64,000 nucleotides of DNA, from assembly GCA_004565275.1 (NCBI GenBank), contig SDOX01000008.1, positions 403,327 to 467,326 of the forward strand, read 5' to 3'. The notes below the pieces were generated by a model, which was not told where the DNA came from, ran no database searches, and saw nothing but the letters and a program-made list of their open reading frames with translations. A program made the position numbers and the translations under genes. Source of the stretch: Nannochloropsis salina CCMP1776 (Eukaryota > Sar > Eustigmatophyceae > Eustigmatales > Monodopsidaceae). Within the stretch, counting starts at the first letter, position 1. Each line of letters opens with the position of its first letter. Below are positions 47,834 through 59,356 of the stretch, piece after piece.

Positions 47834-48883
47834 TTAGAAGGCAAAGGTCGCTACCGTCGCCAAGGACGCTAGGGCCAGAGTCAGCACTACCGAAGCCCGC
47901 ATGCTCCACGCACCAGAAAGATAGTATGTATCCAGACAAGCGCCCGGTTCAAGGGGGGGAGCGTTAGCACAGGGCGTCTTGAAGTCAATCTCAGGACAAA
48001 ATTGTTGGAGGTCCGTCAGAGAGATGGAGCCGACGCTCGTGGAAAGAGTGTCATTGCTGGTCACGCATTCAGTGACGAAGTTGAAGACCGTGCCGGTACA
48101 GCACCCGATGGGCTTCATCTTAGAGCAGAAAGTGGATGCATCCACCGCATTCAGGACGCCAAAAATGTCGGCGAAGCAGTAATTTTTGTTGGTAGGAGAC
48201 GTGGTGCAGAGGTACTCCAGGGCAATCTTGTATCCGTTGACACCCATGTCATTCACTGTCACCTCCGAGTTCTTAGGAGGGATGCATGCCCCGCTCTCAC
48301 ACGCGTAGGAGCACGGGCAAGGCAAAGAAGGCGAGCAGACTGTGCGGCATTTCGTACCAACACACTTCTCCCCGGAGGCACACTCATTGCACGACTGTTT
48401 CAAGATGGAAGCGGAGCATCCCGCGGAGGACATGGTAGAAAGAGTCTTGTGCAAGACATCGTGACACTGATTGGTGCAAATGCGGTGCATGTTAGCCTGA
48501 GAGAAATCATAGCTAGTCTTGCAGTTCTCCTGTTTCACCAAGTTTAAGACAGTTTGAGCCATGTCAAAGCACTCCCACAAGTGAGGAGCAAGGGAAGCAG
48601 CCAAGAAAGCTCCGCATTCCTCATCCGTCGCACCCAGGCGTCGACCATGCCCCATAAATCCTCCGGGAGAAACTGTTTCTAGCTCAAAATCACTGCTCAC
48701 GAGTCCATGATCTAGTGCGCCCTTGGCACTAGAGAGGCCCGCGCTACTTGTAATGTACTCAGCAATGCCGCGAATTGCATCAAAATCATCCACGTGCATG
48801 TCTACGGTGCGCTCAAAGGCATGGCTCAGGCCGAGTAGTGCTGGTGTGAGAAGCAGAAAAGAGGTCTTCTTGAAGATCTGCAT
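47834..48883 (-). CDS. Secreted cysteine-rich protein, probably GPI-anchored
   Basis: The product has 349 residues in one exon, starting at MQIFKKTSFL. A signal peptide (FLLLTPALLGLSHA) and a C-terminal hydrophobic tail (ASVVLTLALASLATVATFAF) after a small-residue site near SGAW make a GPI-anchored surface protein likely. The middle holds about 24 cysteines, many closely spaced (CNECASGEKCVGTKCRTVCS, then CPCSYACESGAC), in an EGF- or disintegrin-like pattern that I cannot assign to a family. Related low-similarity proteins of unknown role occur widely in stramenopile cell surfaces, which is general knowledge rather than a match. An upstream in-frame extension lacking a signal peptide is less likely to be the start. 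Confidence 0.75.
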   Translation of the reverse strand: MQIFKKTSFLLLTPALLGLSHAFERTVDMHVDDFDAIRGIAEYITSSAGLSSAKGALDHGLVSSDFELETVSPGGFMGHGRRLGATDEECGAFLAASLAPHLWECFDMAQTVLNLVKQENCKTSYDFSQANMHRICTNQCHDVLHKTLSTMSSAGCSASILKQSCNECASGEKCVGTKCRTVCSPSLPCPCSYACESGACIPPKNSEVTVNDMGVNGYKIALEYLCTTSPTNKNYCFADIFGVLNAVDASTFCSKMKPIGCCTGTVFNFVTECVTSNDTLSTSVGSISLTDLQQFCPEIDFKTPCANAPPLEPGACLDTYYLSGAWSMRASVVLTLALASLATVATFAF

Positions 48884-50259
48884 ATTAAACAGACGTCTTG
48901 AGCTAGATGTGATTGCGTAAAGGCCTCTGTACGGTTTACAGAAGGTAGTGTGGTACGAGCGCAACACAAGATGAAGGTAGATGTAGAGTGCAACTTCGGT
49001 AAGGCGTAGGATTACCTTTCCCTGTTCTTTTATGTGAATATATATTTGGCAGGTATGAGCGTAACAACGCGGGCTTCGATGCGCGTGGTGTAGGAGATAA
49101 CAGTGCCAGACATCGTATCGACTCCAGTCCGTTAACCGGTTGGCCTCTATGTTATGCCGTCAAGTCATGCTACTCGACCGGGCCAAAAAAATATCTTGTG
49201 CTACATGTGAGGTGTAGGTGCTCCATGTTACATATCCTGCATGCGACAGAGCAGCGTTCTGGTATCGATTGCCCTGGATGTTTGCGATGCACCCCCTTCA
49301 AGAACAAGTTAGTAGCACACCTATACTTCCTTGACGTGCACAGAGAATACGATTTGTAATACAATGCGGAGCAAATAAGGCATCGATAATGAAAAAGCAG
49401 TACCTGCAAAACCAAAGGGAAGCTCTCTCGAAGGTTACGGTAGTCGTCCCACCGTACGTTGAGCTCTCGAAAAAGAGGAAATTGAAATTTCGACGATGCC
49501 GTATTGCTCTCTAAGCCTACATCCTTCAAGCTGAATCTTCAAATTATCTTGCTGCAGGTAGACATTTGTCTTTAAAAAGCATGTATTTCAAAATAGCATC
49601 TACCTGCTTCTTATGTATGCTCGTGTTATTTGCTGGTAAGGAAAGGATCGCATCCCAACCGTCGCATGGAGTGAAAGAAACGGCTTTTCAAATTTAAATT
49701 TGTATGCCAACCTGGCATGCTTTCGGCTTTGATTTATTCGTGACTTTACAAGTGAGTCTTCCGCAACCCACCACAATATGCCAACGCAAGCATAAAGTTC
49801 TGTGGATTCCATAAATCGCGCGAGAGTTGCGACCATGTTGTACCGCAGGCAGACAAGGATATCTTTCCCAAACCAAATTGATGAATTTACGAGTGTTGTG
49901 TGGCACCACATGAGTTCATTCTGAGATCAAATTGAACGCGCTCATTTCTACCACTAATGCTGACACAATTTGCTGGTTCCGGCTTAAGAACCATGAAGCA
50001 ATGATGCCCAACGCAATAAAAGTCATAACTACGGATCTTGTTCCATAGTTGGCGCAATGTTTATTGTCCCCTTAATGTTTGCTTGACTTTCTTGATGCGT
50101 GATCAAGCATATCAATTGTTCTATCCCACTTATCTTTCTCTTTAAAGAAAGATTAACTCGAAATAGACATCGCACGACATGCGCTCCCAACGGGCAAATT
50201 ACATGGATACAACGTGGGCATGAATCAAATCACAATTGTGTATACCCCACCGATGCGCC
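48884..50259. other. AT-rich intergenic region
   Basis: 1.38 kb between two minus-strand genes, with lower G+C than the flanks. It should contain the promoter of the GPI-type gene. Short open frames (up to 119 codons) look random. No tRNA-like cloverleaf, repeat or transposon was recognised. Confidence 0.45.
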
Positions 50260-53169
50260 TCACCCGCACAAACCACCCGCAACCCCTCCCTCTCTTATCC
50301 CATCATCATCGTCATGCTGCTCCTCGTCTTCTTCGTCAAGAAATTTCGACAACGCAATTATTGACCCAGTGGATTGTAGGTAGTCTACGAGATCAATGCC
50401 GCCACCGGCTCCCACAGCTACTCCTCCTCCTCCCTTAGCATCCGGGCCAAGGCCACCTCTTTCCTCTGCATCGACAAGCATCCTCTCAGCACTAGATTCC
50501 GGGACAGGCTTATTTTTGTTAGTCTTGTGCGAGGATTGTGGCACGAAGCTTGTGCTCAAAGGCGCAGTTACGTCAACTCTCGCGTCCTCTCGTCTCCGCC
50601 CCCTCCGCTTGCTACTTCCTCCGTCGCCACCACCATTCACTAACGCTGACTCATGTCCCACGACTTCAGTCCGAGGGAACTGCAATGAGGTCGATACGAT
50701 GGCTTGAACCCCGTTCGAAGGCAGCGCGTTCCTCGAGTCGGTGTGCGAGACATCTTCTCTGTCCTGTGCCGACGGCCCCTTCCTCGTTGTGTCTTCTCTT
50801 CCAGCCTTCTCGTGCTCTGACCCTGCTCCTTCTTTGAGCATGTCCTTTCTCCCTCGGCCGCGCTTACCTCCATTAATGTCAGAACGCATCAACTCAGCGC
50901 CCGCATGTGCCCCCGCGGCCGTAGCTTTAGATTTCTCCCTCTTTTCTGCCCCTCGTGGTGCTGAAGACGGCAACGAATGCTGCATTGGCGCCGCGACCCT
51001 GGGGAGGGGAGCCAATGCATCATCCTCAGAAGAGGAGGAGGAAGAATCCTCTTTTTCTGCCAATGACCAGGCCGATCCCGGTTTTCCCTCCCTTTCCTCG
51101 CCCACCGACGCCTTGCCCGTCGTAGACCCCATCTTTTCCTCATCATTGATCTCTTTCCCCCCGCCCTCCCCGCTCCCGGCCTTTCCGCCACCACCTCCCC
51201 CTCCCGTCGCTTTGGCCTTTTTCTCTTTCTCTTTCTGCTTCCGCCGGGCCTTCCGGTTCCGCTTCGAAGCTTGCAGAGCCTCCTTGGCCGAAGCCTCTTT
51301 CACGCTCATCTCGTTCCAGAGTTCTTCTTGATACGACAAGTGGAACACCGTGCAGTTACATTTAACGCAGACGTAGCACTTGCACTCCCCACAAAACCGG
51401 ACGTCCGGCGCCTGCTTGGAAAACGTCTGCTGGCAAATCGCGCACGTGACGAAGTGGTCCTTCCAGATCCGCGAGGCTCGTTTTGCGATCCCCGGTTGGC
51501 GATGGTGCTCCAGCTCTTCGATCTTCCCGGCCGGGAGCATAGCCGCGTAGGGGTTCGCCGTCCCCGATCTCAGCCCTTCCTCTTCCCCGACCTGTAACAT
51601 CCTTTCTAAGCCCTCCAGCGCCATCATCACCATGTTCGCCTCCCCCAGCAGGTCCCCTAAGACCTGCACACACCCTTGACGCACCAGGAATTCAATCTGG
51701 GCGTCCGAACCGCACGAGGTCGCATTCAAGACCACCCAACATGCTTCACTCCGGACCTCTGCGTCCGTCTCGGCGGGAGGCTGGAGGGCGAGTTCCACCA
51801 AGAGAGGGATGGCCCCACTGTCCAACACGGTCTGGATCTGATCGCAGGTCCCTGCCGCGATGTTTGACAGCGTCCAACAAGCTTCTTTTTGAATTTCGCG
51901 GTTGCTGTGGCTGATTAGAGCCCGTAGGTAAGGTACGGCTCCTGCCTCCAATATATACTGCGTATAGTCCACCTCGTCCTCAGCACAGACAATGTTCCCG
52001 ATCGTCCTCAACGCGGGCTTGGTCACGCGCCAGGACCGGTGTTGCAAGAGCTCGACGAGCCGCCCGCACAGGTTCGCTTCCACAACAACCTTTATGTGGG
52101 CGGAGGGTCCGTCACAAAGGTGGGATAGCGCCCAGCAGGTGTGACTCAGAACCTCCGAATCAGGGCACTGAATGAGTGTGAGAAGGACGGGCATAAGCAC
52201 GGCTATATCCAGGGTGGGCCGTGGCGTGGGGTCGCAGAGATTGTTCAGCGCCCAGGAACCAATACGAAGAACTTTTTGACTGCACTGATGCTGGAGGATA
52301 CAGTGGACGAGGGGTTCTAACGCTCCGTTGGCCAAGACGGTGTCACGAGAGGCGGCACCCTCCCCCGCGATGTTCCCCAGCACCCAGATGGCCTGTTCCA
52401 GCACGTCCTCGTGGGGACTCTCCAGCAACTTGACCAGGACTGGCACTGGATCGTGTCGCAGCAGCATATTCGTGTGCTCGGTGTTGCCTGCCGCGATGTT
52501 CGTCAAAGCCCAGAGGGCCTCCACTTGGATTGTTGGGTGGTCGAGCTGGAGCCACTCGAGGAGGCGCGGGATCCAATTTCGCTCCAGTACCTCGTGGATC
52601 AGCACTTCCCGGTGCGTGGACAGGAGATTTCGAAGCTTCTTGGCTGCTTGAAGCTGGAGTGCCACGCTTTCGGTTCCATGTTCTCTGCTTGTGGGAGCAC
52701 GAGCGAGAGGGGCGCTTGCGTCCGCTTTGGCAGCAACGTGGTCTCCGGTGTCTGATGGACTGTAGATTTGGCTGCCTTTTGAGGGAGGTGGTTCGACATT
52801 ATACGTAGGCTTGGACGCTCTGCTAAGGCCATTTTCAATCTCATCGAGCTCCCGCCGCAATTGCTCCATCTCTAGTGCACTCGTGGCTTGATGTGTAGGT
52901 GCATGGTGATGCCCTAGGAAATAAGATTTTGGCATGGAAGGATCAATTGGAGTGTTTGGTGGCGTACAAGGCGTATTAGGGGCCAACAATTTGAATCAAG
53001 TCCGAGAGGAGGATTTAATCATCAGAGGGTTCCGACACCCCCTCTCTAGGTCATATATCCTACCTTCCGTCGTGGGCAGTCGACAGTTTCCCGCGGCTTG
53101 TTCCTCCCCTCCACGAGCACCAGAGTCTCCACAATATCCTCCGCTCCCACCGCTGCTCCTGTTGGCCAT
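50260..53169 (-). CDS. Importin-alpha-like armadillo protein with C-terminal cysteine-rich finger
   Basis: Armadillo protein of the karyopherin-alpha type, 919 residues from exons 53169-53064 and 52913-50260. Residues about 90-470 hold the conserved Trp/Asn ladder used to bind nuclear localisation signals: EALWALTNIAAGN, QAIWVLGNIAGEG, GSWALNNLCD, CWALSHLCDGP, PALRTIGNIV, CWTLSNIAAGT and CWVVLNATSCG. The N-terminus lacks the arginine/lysine-rich importin-beta-binding helix that true importins alpha need. After the repeats (about 524-560) come eight cysteines in a tight pattern beginning CAICQQTF and continuing FCGECKCYVCVKCNC, likely a two-zinc finger. A Lys/Glu/Gly-rich tail ends in EDEEQHDDDDG. 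A GTG-preceded frame runs upstream of the first ATG, so an earlier exon cannot be excluded. Confidence 0.85.
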
Positions 53170-54685: not shown

Positions 54686-54994
54686 TCACGTTACATGTAC
54701 ATTTCGATTTGAATGCTTATCCTTCCATGCAAATAGCTTTTTCATGACGTCCTCAGGAATAGTCTGTCCCAGAATCTCACACAGTTCCTGCTTCGCAACA
54801 CCTTGCTGATTCTCCCTTGCCACCATTTTTGCGGTGAATTGTTCCATGGTTTTCTTGTTCTGTTGGTACATATATTGCTTCTCTAAAGCTTCCTCTTTAT
54901 CCTCAAATGTTGAGCGATGGTCAGAAAGCCAGCGGGATCCAGAACCCAGGCGAAGCTGACGACCGTGCGCCCGGATGACATGCCACAGAGCCAT
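54686..54994 (-). CDS. IF1-like mitochondrial ATP synthase inhibitor
   Basis: Small basic protein of 102 residues, one exon. The start MALWHVIRAHGRQLRLGSGS is a good mitochondrial presequence (Arg/His, no acid). The mature part has the IF1 pattern of a short linker, then an amphipathic helix rich in Glu, Gln and Lys: HRSTFEDKEEALEKQYMYQQ, then NKKTMEQFTAKMVARENQQG. In known IF1 the 'F..rE.a.E..Y' stretch enters the F1 catalytic interface and blocks ATP hydrolysis when the membrane potential falls. The C-terminal 40 residues (ILGQTIPEDVMKKLFAWKDK) are longer than in animals. The match is by pattern only, so confidence is moderate. Confidence 0.62.
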   Translation of the reverse strand: MALWHVIRAHGRQLRLGSGSRWLSDHRSTFEDKEEALEKQYMYQQNKKTMEQFTAKMVARENQQGVAKQELCEILGQTIPEDVMKKLFAWKDKHSNRNVHVT

Positions 54995-55538
54995 ATAACA
55001 GATGGCTGACTTTTGACTATTGATTTGCAACAAAAATTGTTAATATTTTCATAAGACGAGAGATTTGCATTTTGCTCCCAAAGAAAAATATTGAGTCCAA
55101 GGAGGAAGAGAGGGGCGTGAGGAGGTTTTAAGCAAAGTTATAGAGAAAGCTTGCTGCTCCTGTCGTTGGATACTAACTTGAAGAAGGGATAAAACATAAT
55201 AGTCAAAGTTGTCGATTGCTTCACGGACACATTCCCCTTATACTTCACGCAGGAATTGGGTTTCTTGCCAACAGAACACCGTCCGGGGCCAGCTGCTCGC
55301 CGATCGGCCCGTAACGGCTTCCAACGGCTCAAGTTCCCTGCCACGGCATTTTCGCGTTCTTGCAGGTTAAAGCAAGAATTCTCTTCTTTGCGTCCTTAAA
55401 AAATTTACTTACCGCTGCCTCAATGATATTTTACTTCTGACAGAAGGCTGTACTTGACATGCGGTCTCATGTCTTGTACTCGTAAACGTATACGCCACGA
55501 CATGACGTCTTCGTCCAACTGTCCCCGTACCTAACGAC
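54995..55538. promoter_or_regulatory. Divergent upstream region, IF1-like / IQ-motif protein
   Basis: A gap of 544 bp. The right end should be the 5' UTR of the IQ-motif gene, because its start codon sits directly at the end of the first exon. No other element was seen. Confidence 0.4.
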
Positions 55539-58152: not shown

Positions 58153-59356
58153 TCAATGCTTGTTCCTTTTGCCAGAGGTCTTCTTGGCCTCTTTCATGCT
58201 TGTCGCCTCCTTCTTTTTCTCTTCCTCGAGCGCGATTCCCTTTTCCTTTTTTTTCTTCTTCTTTTCTGCCCGATCTGCAAATGCCATGTTTTTCCCCGCC
58301 GCTTCGGTGGAGGGCCTTTCAGTTGACTCGGCTTTGCTCAGAGGTTTCTTCCTCTCTGCAACCTCGACGCGATCGACGGCCTTTGCGCTTTTGTTATTCC
58401 CTCCTGACCTGCTCTTCCTTCTCTTCTGCTTTCTTTGCTCTTCTTTATCGCTCCCTTCCTCTCCCTTCATGGCAAAAGCCCCCTTCTTCGCCGCTGTCAC
58501 CACGTCATCTTTTTGCCTTCCATGCGCGGCCTCCCCGACCGCTTTTTCTGCTTTTCGGTAGTGCACCACTCCATCCTCCACGTGCAGCAAGTCGTGGGTG
58601 TCCACAGCACGGTGAAATGCATGCTTTAACACCTTCTTACTCTGCGTCCCTGCAACACTTCCCTTGGCGGTTCGGGAGCTGGTCCTTTCCAATGCCAGGG
58701 TGACAACGTGCTTTCTCAGCCGCCTCAAGGGAACTTTATTCTCCTCCGCCGCCTTCAGAGCCCTCTTGATATGTTTGTGCCAGGAAAACTTGATGTCTAC
58801 CGCCATCGTCGCATCGCCTGCCTGAGGATTCTGAAGCGCCTTCCAACTCAAGGCCTCCTCCAGACTCTGCCGTCGCCGCTTCCTGGGAGGTTCTTCTCCC
58901 TCTTGCTTCTCAGACGCTGTTAATAAAATGTCTTTCCGTTTTTTGCTTGCATCTTCCCCTTTTGATCTCTTCCCTTTCTTCCTCTTCTCCTTCTTGATGT
59001 AGCCACGCACAGGCAAGCTGCTTTCTCCTTCGCTTTCTGGCTTCACCTCTGCAATATCATCATCCCCCCACTTCTTGTACCCACCATGACCCGCTCGCAC
59101 AAAATAGGAGTACAGGCCATTTTTAGGCAAACCATCGTCTGTCTTTTTGGGCCCAAAGCCTGAATTGAAACCCAAGCCACCCGTCTTTGTTTTATAATAG
59201 AAATTGCACAACGTGAATTACAAGAGCTGAAGTTGCCACGAATGGTCTGACTGAAGAGAGGGTGTTGCTCCTTAACAACATGCATGTCCTTACCTTGCCC
59301 CGAGGTCGTAGCTTGTCCAATGTGTCGTGAAGGCGCTGCATCCTGTCGTCCTCCAT
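58153..59356 (-). CDS. Lys-rich nucleolar protein with LYAR-like C-terminal domain
   Basis: Exons 59356-59294 and 59184-58153 give 364 residues, starting MEDDRMQRLHDTLDKLRPRG. The middle and tail are very Lys/Glu/Arg-rich with several nuclear or nucleolar signals (KKEKRKKGKRSKGE, PPRKRRRQSLEE, KKKKKKEKG). Residues about 135-165 read FSWHKHIKRALKAAEENKVP then LRRLRKHVVTLAL, followed by QSKKVLKHAFHRAV. This matches the winged-helix C-terminus of the nucleolar factor LYAR (FNWKGTIKAIL...IKKLRKKV). The zinc fingers that define the N-terminus of LYAR are absent. Instead there is a Gly-rich N-terminus (GLGFNSGFGPKK). A role in ribosome biogenesis or nucleolar transcription is inferred. It shares its promoter gap with GAR1, another nucleolar gene. 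Confidence 0.68.

Follow-up and report, generated by a model that had tools for sequence, protein, structure and literature searches.

Can a protein that keeps the NLS-binding armadillo solenoid of importin alpha, and in which no importin-beta-binding (IBB) domain is found, still belong to the nuclear import cycle? This question is raised by a gene in a 64,000 nucleotide stretch of the Nannochloropsis salina CCMP1776 genome (contig SDOX01000008.1, positions 403,327 to 467,326 of the forward strand; hereafter the window). The gene is encoded on the minus strand, with an ATG at 53169 and a stop codon at 50262–50260 (window positions throughout), as the first-pass annotation of this DNA had placed it. 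Straight translation of 53169–50260 meets one inner stop, a TGA at 52998–52996. Removal of a candidate phase-1 GT...AG intron (150 nt, 53063–52914), predicted from the sequence, would take out this in-frame TGA and yield a protein of 919 amino acids. The unspliced alternative is an open reading frame of 909 amino acids from a TTG at 52989, with a possible product of 891 amino acids from the first ATG at 52935 that would not carry the Gly/Ser-rich start. From the armadillo part onward, spliced and unspliced models have identical residues. Features of the gene are collected in Table 1.

Table 1. Features of the importin-alpha-like gene (window positions; residue numbers of the spliced model)
Feature	Position	Strand	Basis
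Proposed exon 1, Gly/Ser-rich N-terminus (MANRSSGGSGG...), without a basic IBB helix	53064..53169	-	Phase-1 join, inferred
Proposed intron, GT...AG, 150 nt, holds TGA 52996–52998	52914..53063	-	Inferred
Exon 2, residues 36–919 and stop, frame open throughout	50260..52913	-	Open reading frame
Armadillo solenoid, importin alpha type, with NLS-binding Trp/Asn ladder	51457..52671	-	Pfam, phmmer, Foldseek, ladder mapping
Segment of ARM9 and degraded ARM10, lacking some residues and its acidic end	51430..51672	-	Arm_3, 13.8 bits (cut-off 28.8)
Eight-cysteine finger, residues 526–560, CxxC-x13-CxxC-x4-CxxC plus Cys 548, Cys 556 and His 560	51340..51444	-	Cysteine mapping, profile/PDB comparison
Low-complexity tail, Gly/Ser/Glu/Lys-rich, acidic end stretch	50263..51339	-	Composition; coding signal weaker than in the armadillo part
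Basic cluster KRNRKARR, residues 586–593, in predicted long helix after the finger	51241..51264	-	Models
Basic cluster SKRRGRRR, residues 803–810	50590..50613	-	Sequence

The repeats identify the protein as a relative of importin alpha. Pfam Arm repeats match at E 6.5e-50, and the best PDB match by phmmer is rice importin alpha-1a (E 9.9e-96). This search returned 137 distinct sequences at an E limit of 0.001, and the top 60 are all importin or karyopherin alphas, including one NLS fusion construct and one entry named SRP1. Foldseek analysis with the armadillo model gave a similar picture: among 1762 matches (E up to 10), the best 50 all belong to importin alphas, with target TM-scores of 0.74–0.84. 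Both structure predictions used the window gene alone, with no alignment; in the AlphaFold single-sequence model, pLDDT by block is 75–96 for model residues 11–320 (about the first seven repeats) and lower from there to the finger. The rice protein (PDB 2yns/4b8j) and the window gene have the solenoid and its Trp/Asn ladder in common (E about 1e-95), whereas the window gene is without the IBB, has a degraded ARM10/Arm_3 and carries the finger and tail in addition. The first-pass annotation had called an importin alpha armadillo with its NLS ladder, and these comparisons agree on that family among armadillo proteins.

The genome's canonical importin alpha (G000:C2) served as the alignment partner for mapping 30 positions of the NLS groove, named by what we take to be mouse importin alpha numbering. 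The Trp/Asn ladder of the major and minor NLS sites is kept at all 12 mapped positions. Identity to the canonical paralogue is 23/30 in the groove versus 151/362 at the other aligned armadillo positions (Fisher p 0.0002); since the groove positions were picked once the sequence had been seen, and change slowly across the family anyway, this test shows retention of the groove, not its use. The seven changes are D192E, N228I, R238D, K240T, Y277H, T322C and G323A; as seven of 30 positions differ, three of them in ARM4, NLS affinity may differ as well. The data support the view that the peptide-binding groove is largely kept. Minor-site groove residues are also given in a study on Arabidopsis isoforms (PMC12871931).

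The IBB domain, on the other hand, was not found. A search of the whole genome with PF01749 (E up to 10) hits two places, neither of them in the window gene: G000:C2 (79.1 bits) and G000:C70 (53.5 bits), two other importin alphas that carry the IBB. The second of these, at about 635897–637912 of C70 (L010, minus strand), has introns and is more divergent than C2; it was compared by its main exons. Against 4b8j_A the window gene scores 324 bits versus 713 for the canonical paralogue, which is matched over its IBB as well. A first local IBB profile was built from six sequences including both paralogues, which score 68.9 and 57.6 bits by construction; a second profile, from which these two were left out, still gives 34.9 and 29.6 bits for them. 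By the first profile, the window protein reaches 2.7 bits over its full length, and its best stretch, in the tail, 1.2 bits. Upstream, at 52.9–58 kb, no IBB frame was found among 131 minus-strand stop-to-stop segments (maximum 3.6 bits by the first and 5.7 bits by the second profile), in a scan that would miss an IBB divided among very short exons. The best scores of the whole window, 9.7 and 9.2 bits, are located at 26.9–27.1 kb, far from the gene. The absence of an IBB noted at first pass is upheld by these searches, and, as far as the DNA shows, no upstream exon that would supply one was found between 52.9 and 58 kb.

One reading would remove any functional novelty: a transcript or splice variant may restore the IBB or drop finger and tail, or the frame may be a decaying duplicate. 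The splicing is indeed a prediction, by eye the first exon of both IBB-bearing paralogues is short and an intron lies where the IBB starts, and the tail has a weak coding signal with a donor-like GTAAG at 50867. However, no IBB-like frame was found in the upstream region, and the frame of the armadillo and finger part runs without a stop, with a codon-position GC resembling that of neighbouring genes. We regard this reading as quite improbable.

The opposite end of the solenoid differs from importin alpha as well. Arm_3 (PF16186) models the atypical repeat with which importin alpha ends. In the ARM9–10 segment of the window gene it scores 13.8 bits, below the cut-off of 28.8, while the C2 protein (58.9) and the last C70 exon (47.4) both pass; over the whole protein, Arm_3 reaches 21.3 bits, and this match falls on an inner repeat (ORF residues 342–370). 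The segment is shorter and its acidic end is gone. CAS, the recycler, is reported to bind to repeats nine and ten (PMC3218035). Given this role, and with no IBB found, both transport ends of the protein look altered. The genome holds one CSE1/CAS match and ten IBN_N matches, all ten over cut-off, so that an ordinary import cycle appears to be present beside the window gene.

Absence of the IBB has precedents. One paper describes several Drosophila importin alpha duplicates without IBB, and reports that a function of IBB-less importin alphas in nuclear transport was shown in yeast and Drosophila (PMC8645118). Arabidopsis IMPa8 is described as consisting of armadillo repeats only; it was grouped with IMPa6 by NLS-peptide affinity, and NLS-peptide binding is reported for Arabidopsis isoforms including this one (PMC12871931). 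IMPa8 and Drosophila aKap4, 5, 6 and aKap2 duplicates likewise have armadillo repeats without IBB; compared by description, within the passages covered, they are not said to carry a finger at the C-terminus or a long tail. A fusion of importin alpha to a finger, with a degraded ARM10, did not turn up in literature searches limited to open-licence papers. The first-pass annotation had known of no importin alpha with this plan; the statement holds for the finger fusion within that literature, but not for the absence of the IBB, which is in print for Arabidopsis and Drosophila. Hence, what is new here is the fusion to a finger, combined with two altered transport ends.

The same precedents bear on a possible role as an import receptor independent of importin beta, which would enter the nucleus by itself along with its cargo, as has been suggested for importin alphas without an IBB in the fly germline. 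Transport function in yeast and Drosophila (PMC8645118) and peptide binding in Arabidopsis (PMC12871931) are in line with such a receptor, as is the kept NLS ladder. However, the repeat that would serve CAS is degraded, and finger and tail would be left unexplained. We consider such a receptor unlikely.

Relatives were also sought in viral and prokaryotic sequence collections. Viral contigs gave none for the finger, for the armadillo-finger part or for an alignment of the gene with both paralogue pieces; prokaryotic genome contigs gave none for the armadillo-finger part; and a degenerate DNA pattern of the finger had no match in either. With collections of viruses and prokaryotes, these misses are uninformative on eukaryotic orthologues. 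Elsewhere in the own genome, an 872-amino acid open reading frame with many armadillo-like repeats (G000:C57:922191–923018, L012) has weak similarity to the window gene (E 2e-8).

The eight cysteines of the finger are found at residues 526, 529, 543, 546, 548, 551, 554 and 556, followed by His 560, and confirm the compact C-terminal module seen at first pass. When the 22 cysteines of the exon-2 protein were placed randomly, eight fell within 31 residues in 6 of 200000 shuffles. Finger and tail share one open frame with the armadillo repeats, which, at the level of DNA, argues against a separate finger gene. The module is unique in its own genome, where a protein search (E up to 10) matched only the finger itself, and comparison with Pfam and PDB yielded no significant family match. 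The closest resemblance is to the FYVE_2 finger (PF02318) of the Slp4/rabphilin type, in which the spacing of the first six cysteines, CxxC-x13-CxxC-x4-CxxC, is identical. However, E is only 0.055 for Slp4 and 0.08 for Pfam FYVE_2 (13.6 bits versus a cut-off of 27.2, with no match for a longer fragment), the later CxxC pair of that family is missing, and Cys 548, Cys 556 and His 560 are extra. TRIM B-boxes have a similar ligand spacing, with a His after the last CxxC and then a helix. The likeness is weak (TRIM23 and TRIM5, E 1.2 and 3), and here there is no RING or TRIM context and the eighth ligand is ambiguous. In the predicted models the finger blocks have low confidence (pLDDT about 46–71); in a Foldseek search with this part, E stayed at 0.2 or above, the best rows being HOIL-1 RING2, and the result was set aside because the model is poor. 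The finger may be described as a zinc-finger-like module with putative zinc-binding cysteines. As a side observation, a genome search with FYVE_2 finds five places elsewhere, none over cut-off; one of these (G000:C72:409729–409917, minus strand) reaches 26.8 bits, barely below it.

The tail had been described as 360 residues rich in Lys and Glu. Its length is about right (361 residues from 559 on), but its composition is led by Gly and Ser rather than by Lys and Glu (G 54, S 39, E 37, K 30, R 26, D 23). In windows from residue 587, GC2 is 0.54–0.59 and GC3 0.48–0.66, and the pattern of the armadillo part is absent; this may be an effect of composition, or part of the tail may be non-coding. 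With this less clearly coding GC, and the GTAAG mentioned above, the full extent of the tail is less sure than the rest of the protein.

The tail contains two clusters with at least six Lys/Arg in eight residues, a number reached in 3 of 5000 tail shuffles at a threshold set post hoc. These clusters might replace the autoinhibition exerted by the IBB, by folding into the NLS groove in cis until cargo or a partner of the finger releases them. The long helix with KRNRKARR that the models place after the finger would fit this idea, as would the rarity of two such clusters. However, the models covered little of the tail, the tail has no similarity to the IBB, and a basic cluster can also be no more than an NLS, or a nucleolar or RNA-binding segment. 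We give cis-inhibition by the tail little credence. An IBB moved into the tail, as a claim of homology, was rejected on the score of its best stretch (1.2 bits); the analogy would be functional only.

The genomic surroundings were inspected as well. Neighbouring genes in the window, among them those for a WD40 protein, an ABC1 kinase and a ribulose-phosphate epimerase, show no tie to the present finding. A cysteine-rich protein at 47834–48967 (minus strand) by eye begins like a signal peptide and ends in a hydrophobic stretch, and has no Pfam match. By eye, a small open reading frame at 54686–55033 (minus strand) presumably resembles the mitochondrial F1-ATPase inhibitor, and a Lys-rich one at 58153–59211 (minus strand) has what we take to be a PinX1/G-patch-like start; neither has a Pfam match.

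At the level of sequence, the window gene combines a largely kept NLS groove with a degraded CAS-type repeat, an in-frame finger and a tail with basic clusters, and no IBB was found. Based on this dataset, we hypothesize that it is a divergent third importin alpha paralogue, converted from a shuttling import adaptor to an NLS-binding adaptor of another kind; in our judgement this explanation stands an even chance of being correct. Such an adaptor would bind basic NLS peptides without autoinhibition by an IBB and would not itself ride on importin beta. The finger may act as a cross-brace module for protein docking at a partner or site, where NLS proteins would be held, competed for or delivered. 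The protein would be located in the nucleus if the NLS-like clusters of the tail are used, and otherwise in the cytoplasm. Proteins tagged by an NLS may then be anchored or sorted rather than ferried.

A more far-reaching possibility, which we consider doubtful, is a new class of NLS readers: a solenoid freed of its importin beta docking and recycling end, combined with a cross-brace finger and with a basic segment that replaces the IBB as inhibitor in cis, which would sort or retain NLS proteins apart from the import cycle. If real, the converted paralogue would uncouple NLS recognition from transport within one protein, and would provide a natural test of the importin alpha groove without importin beta and CAS. 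It would also predict that a third importin alpha, one that does not shuttle, competes for NLS cargo in this organism, which may be useful for the engineering of nuclear targeting there.
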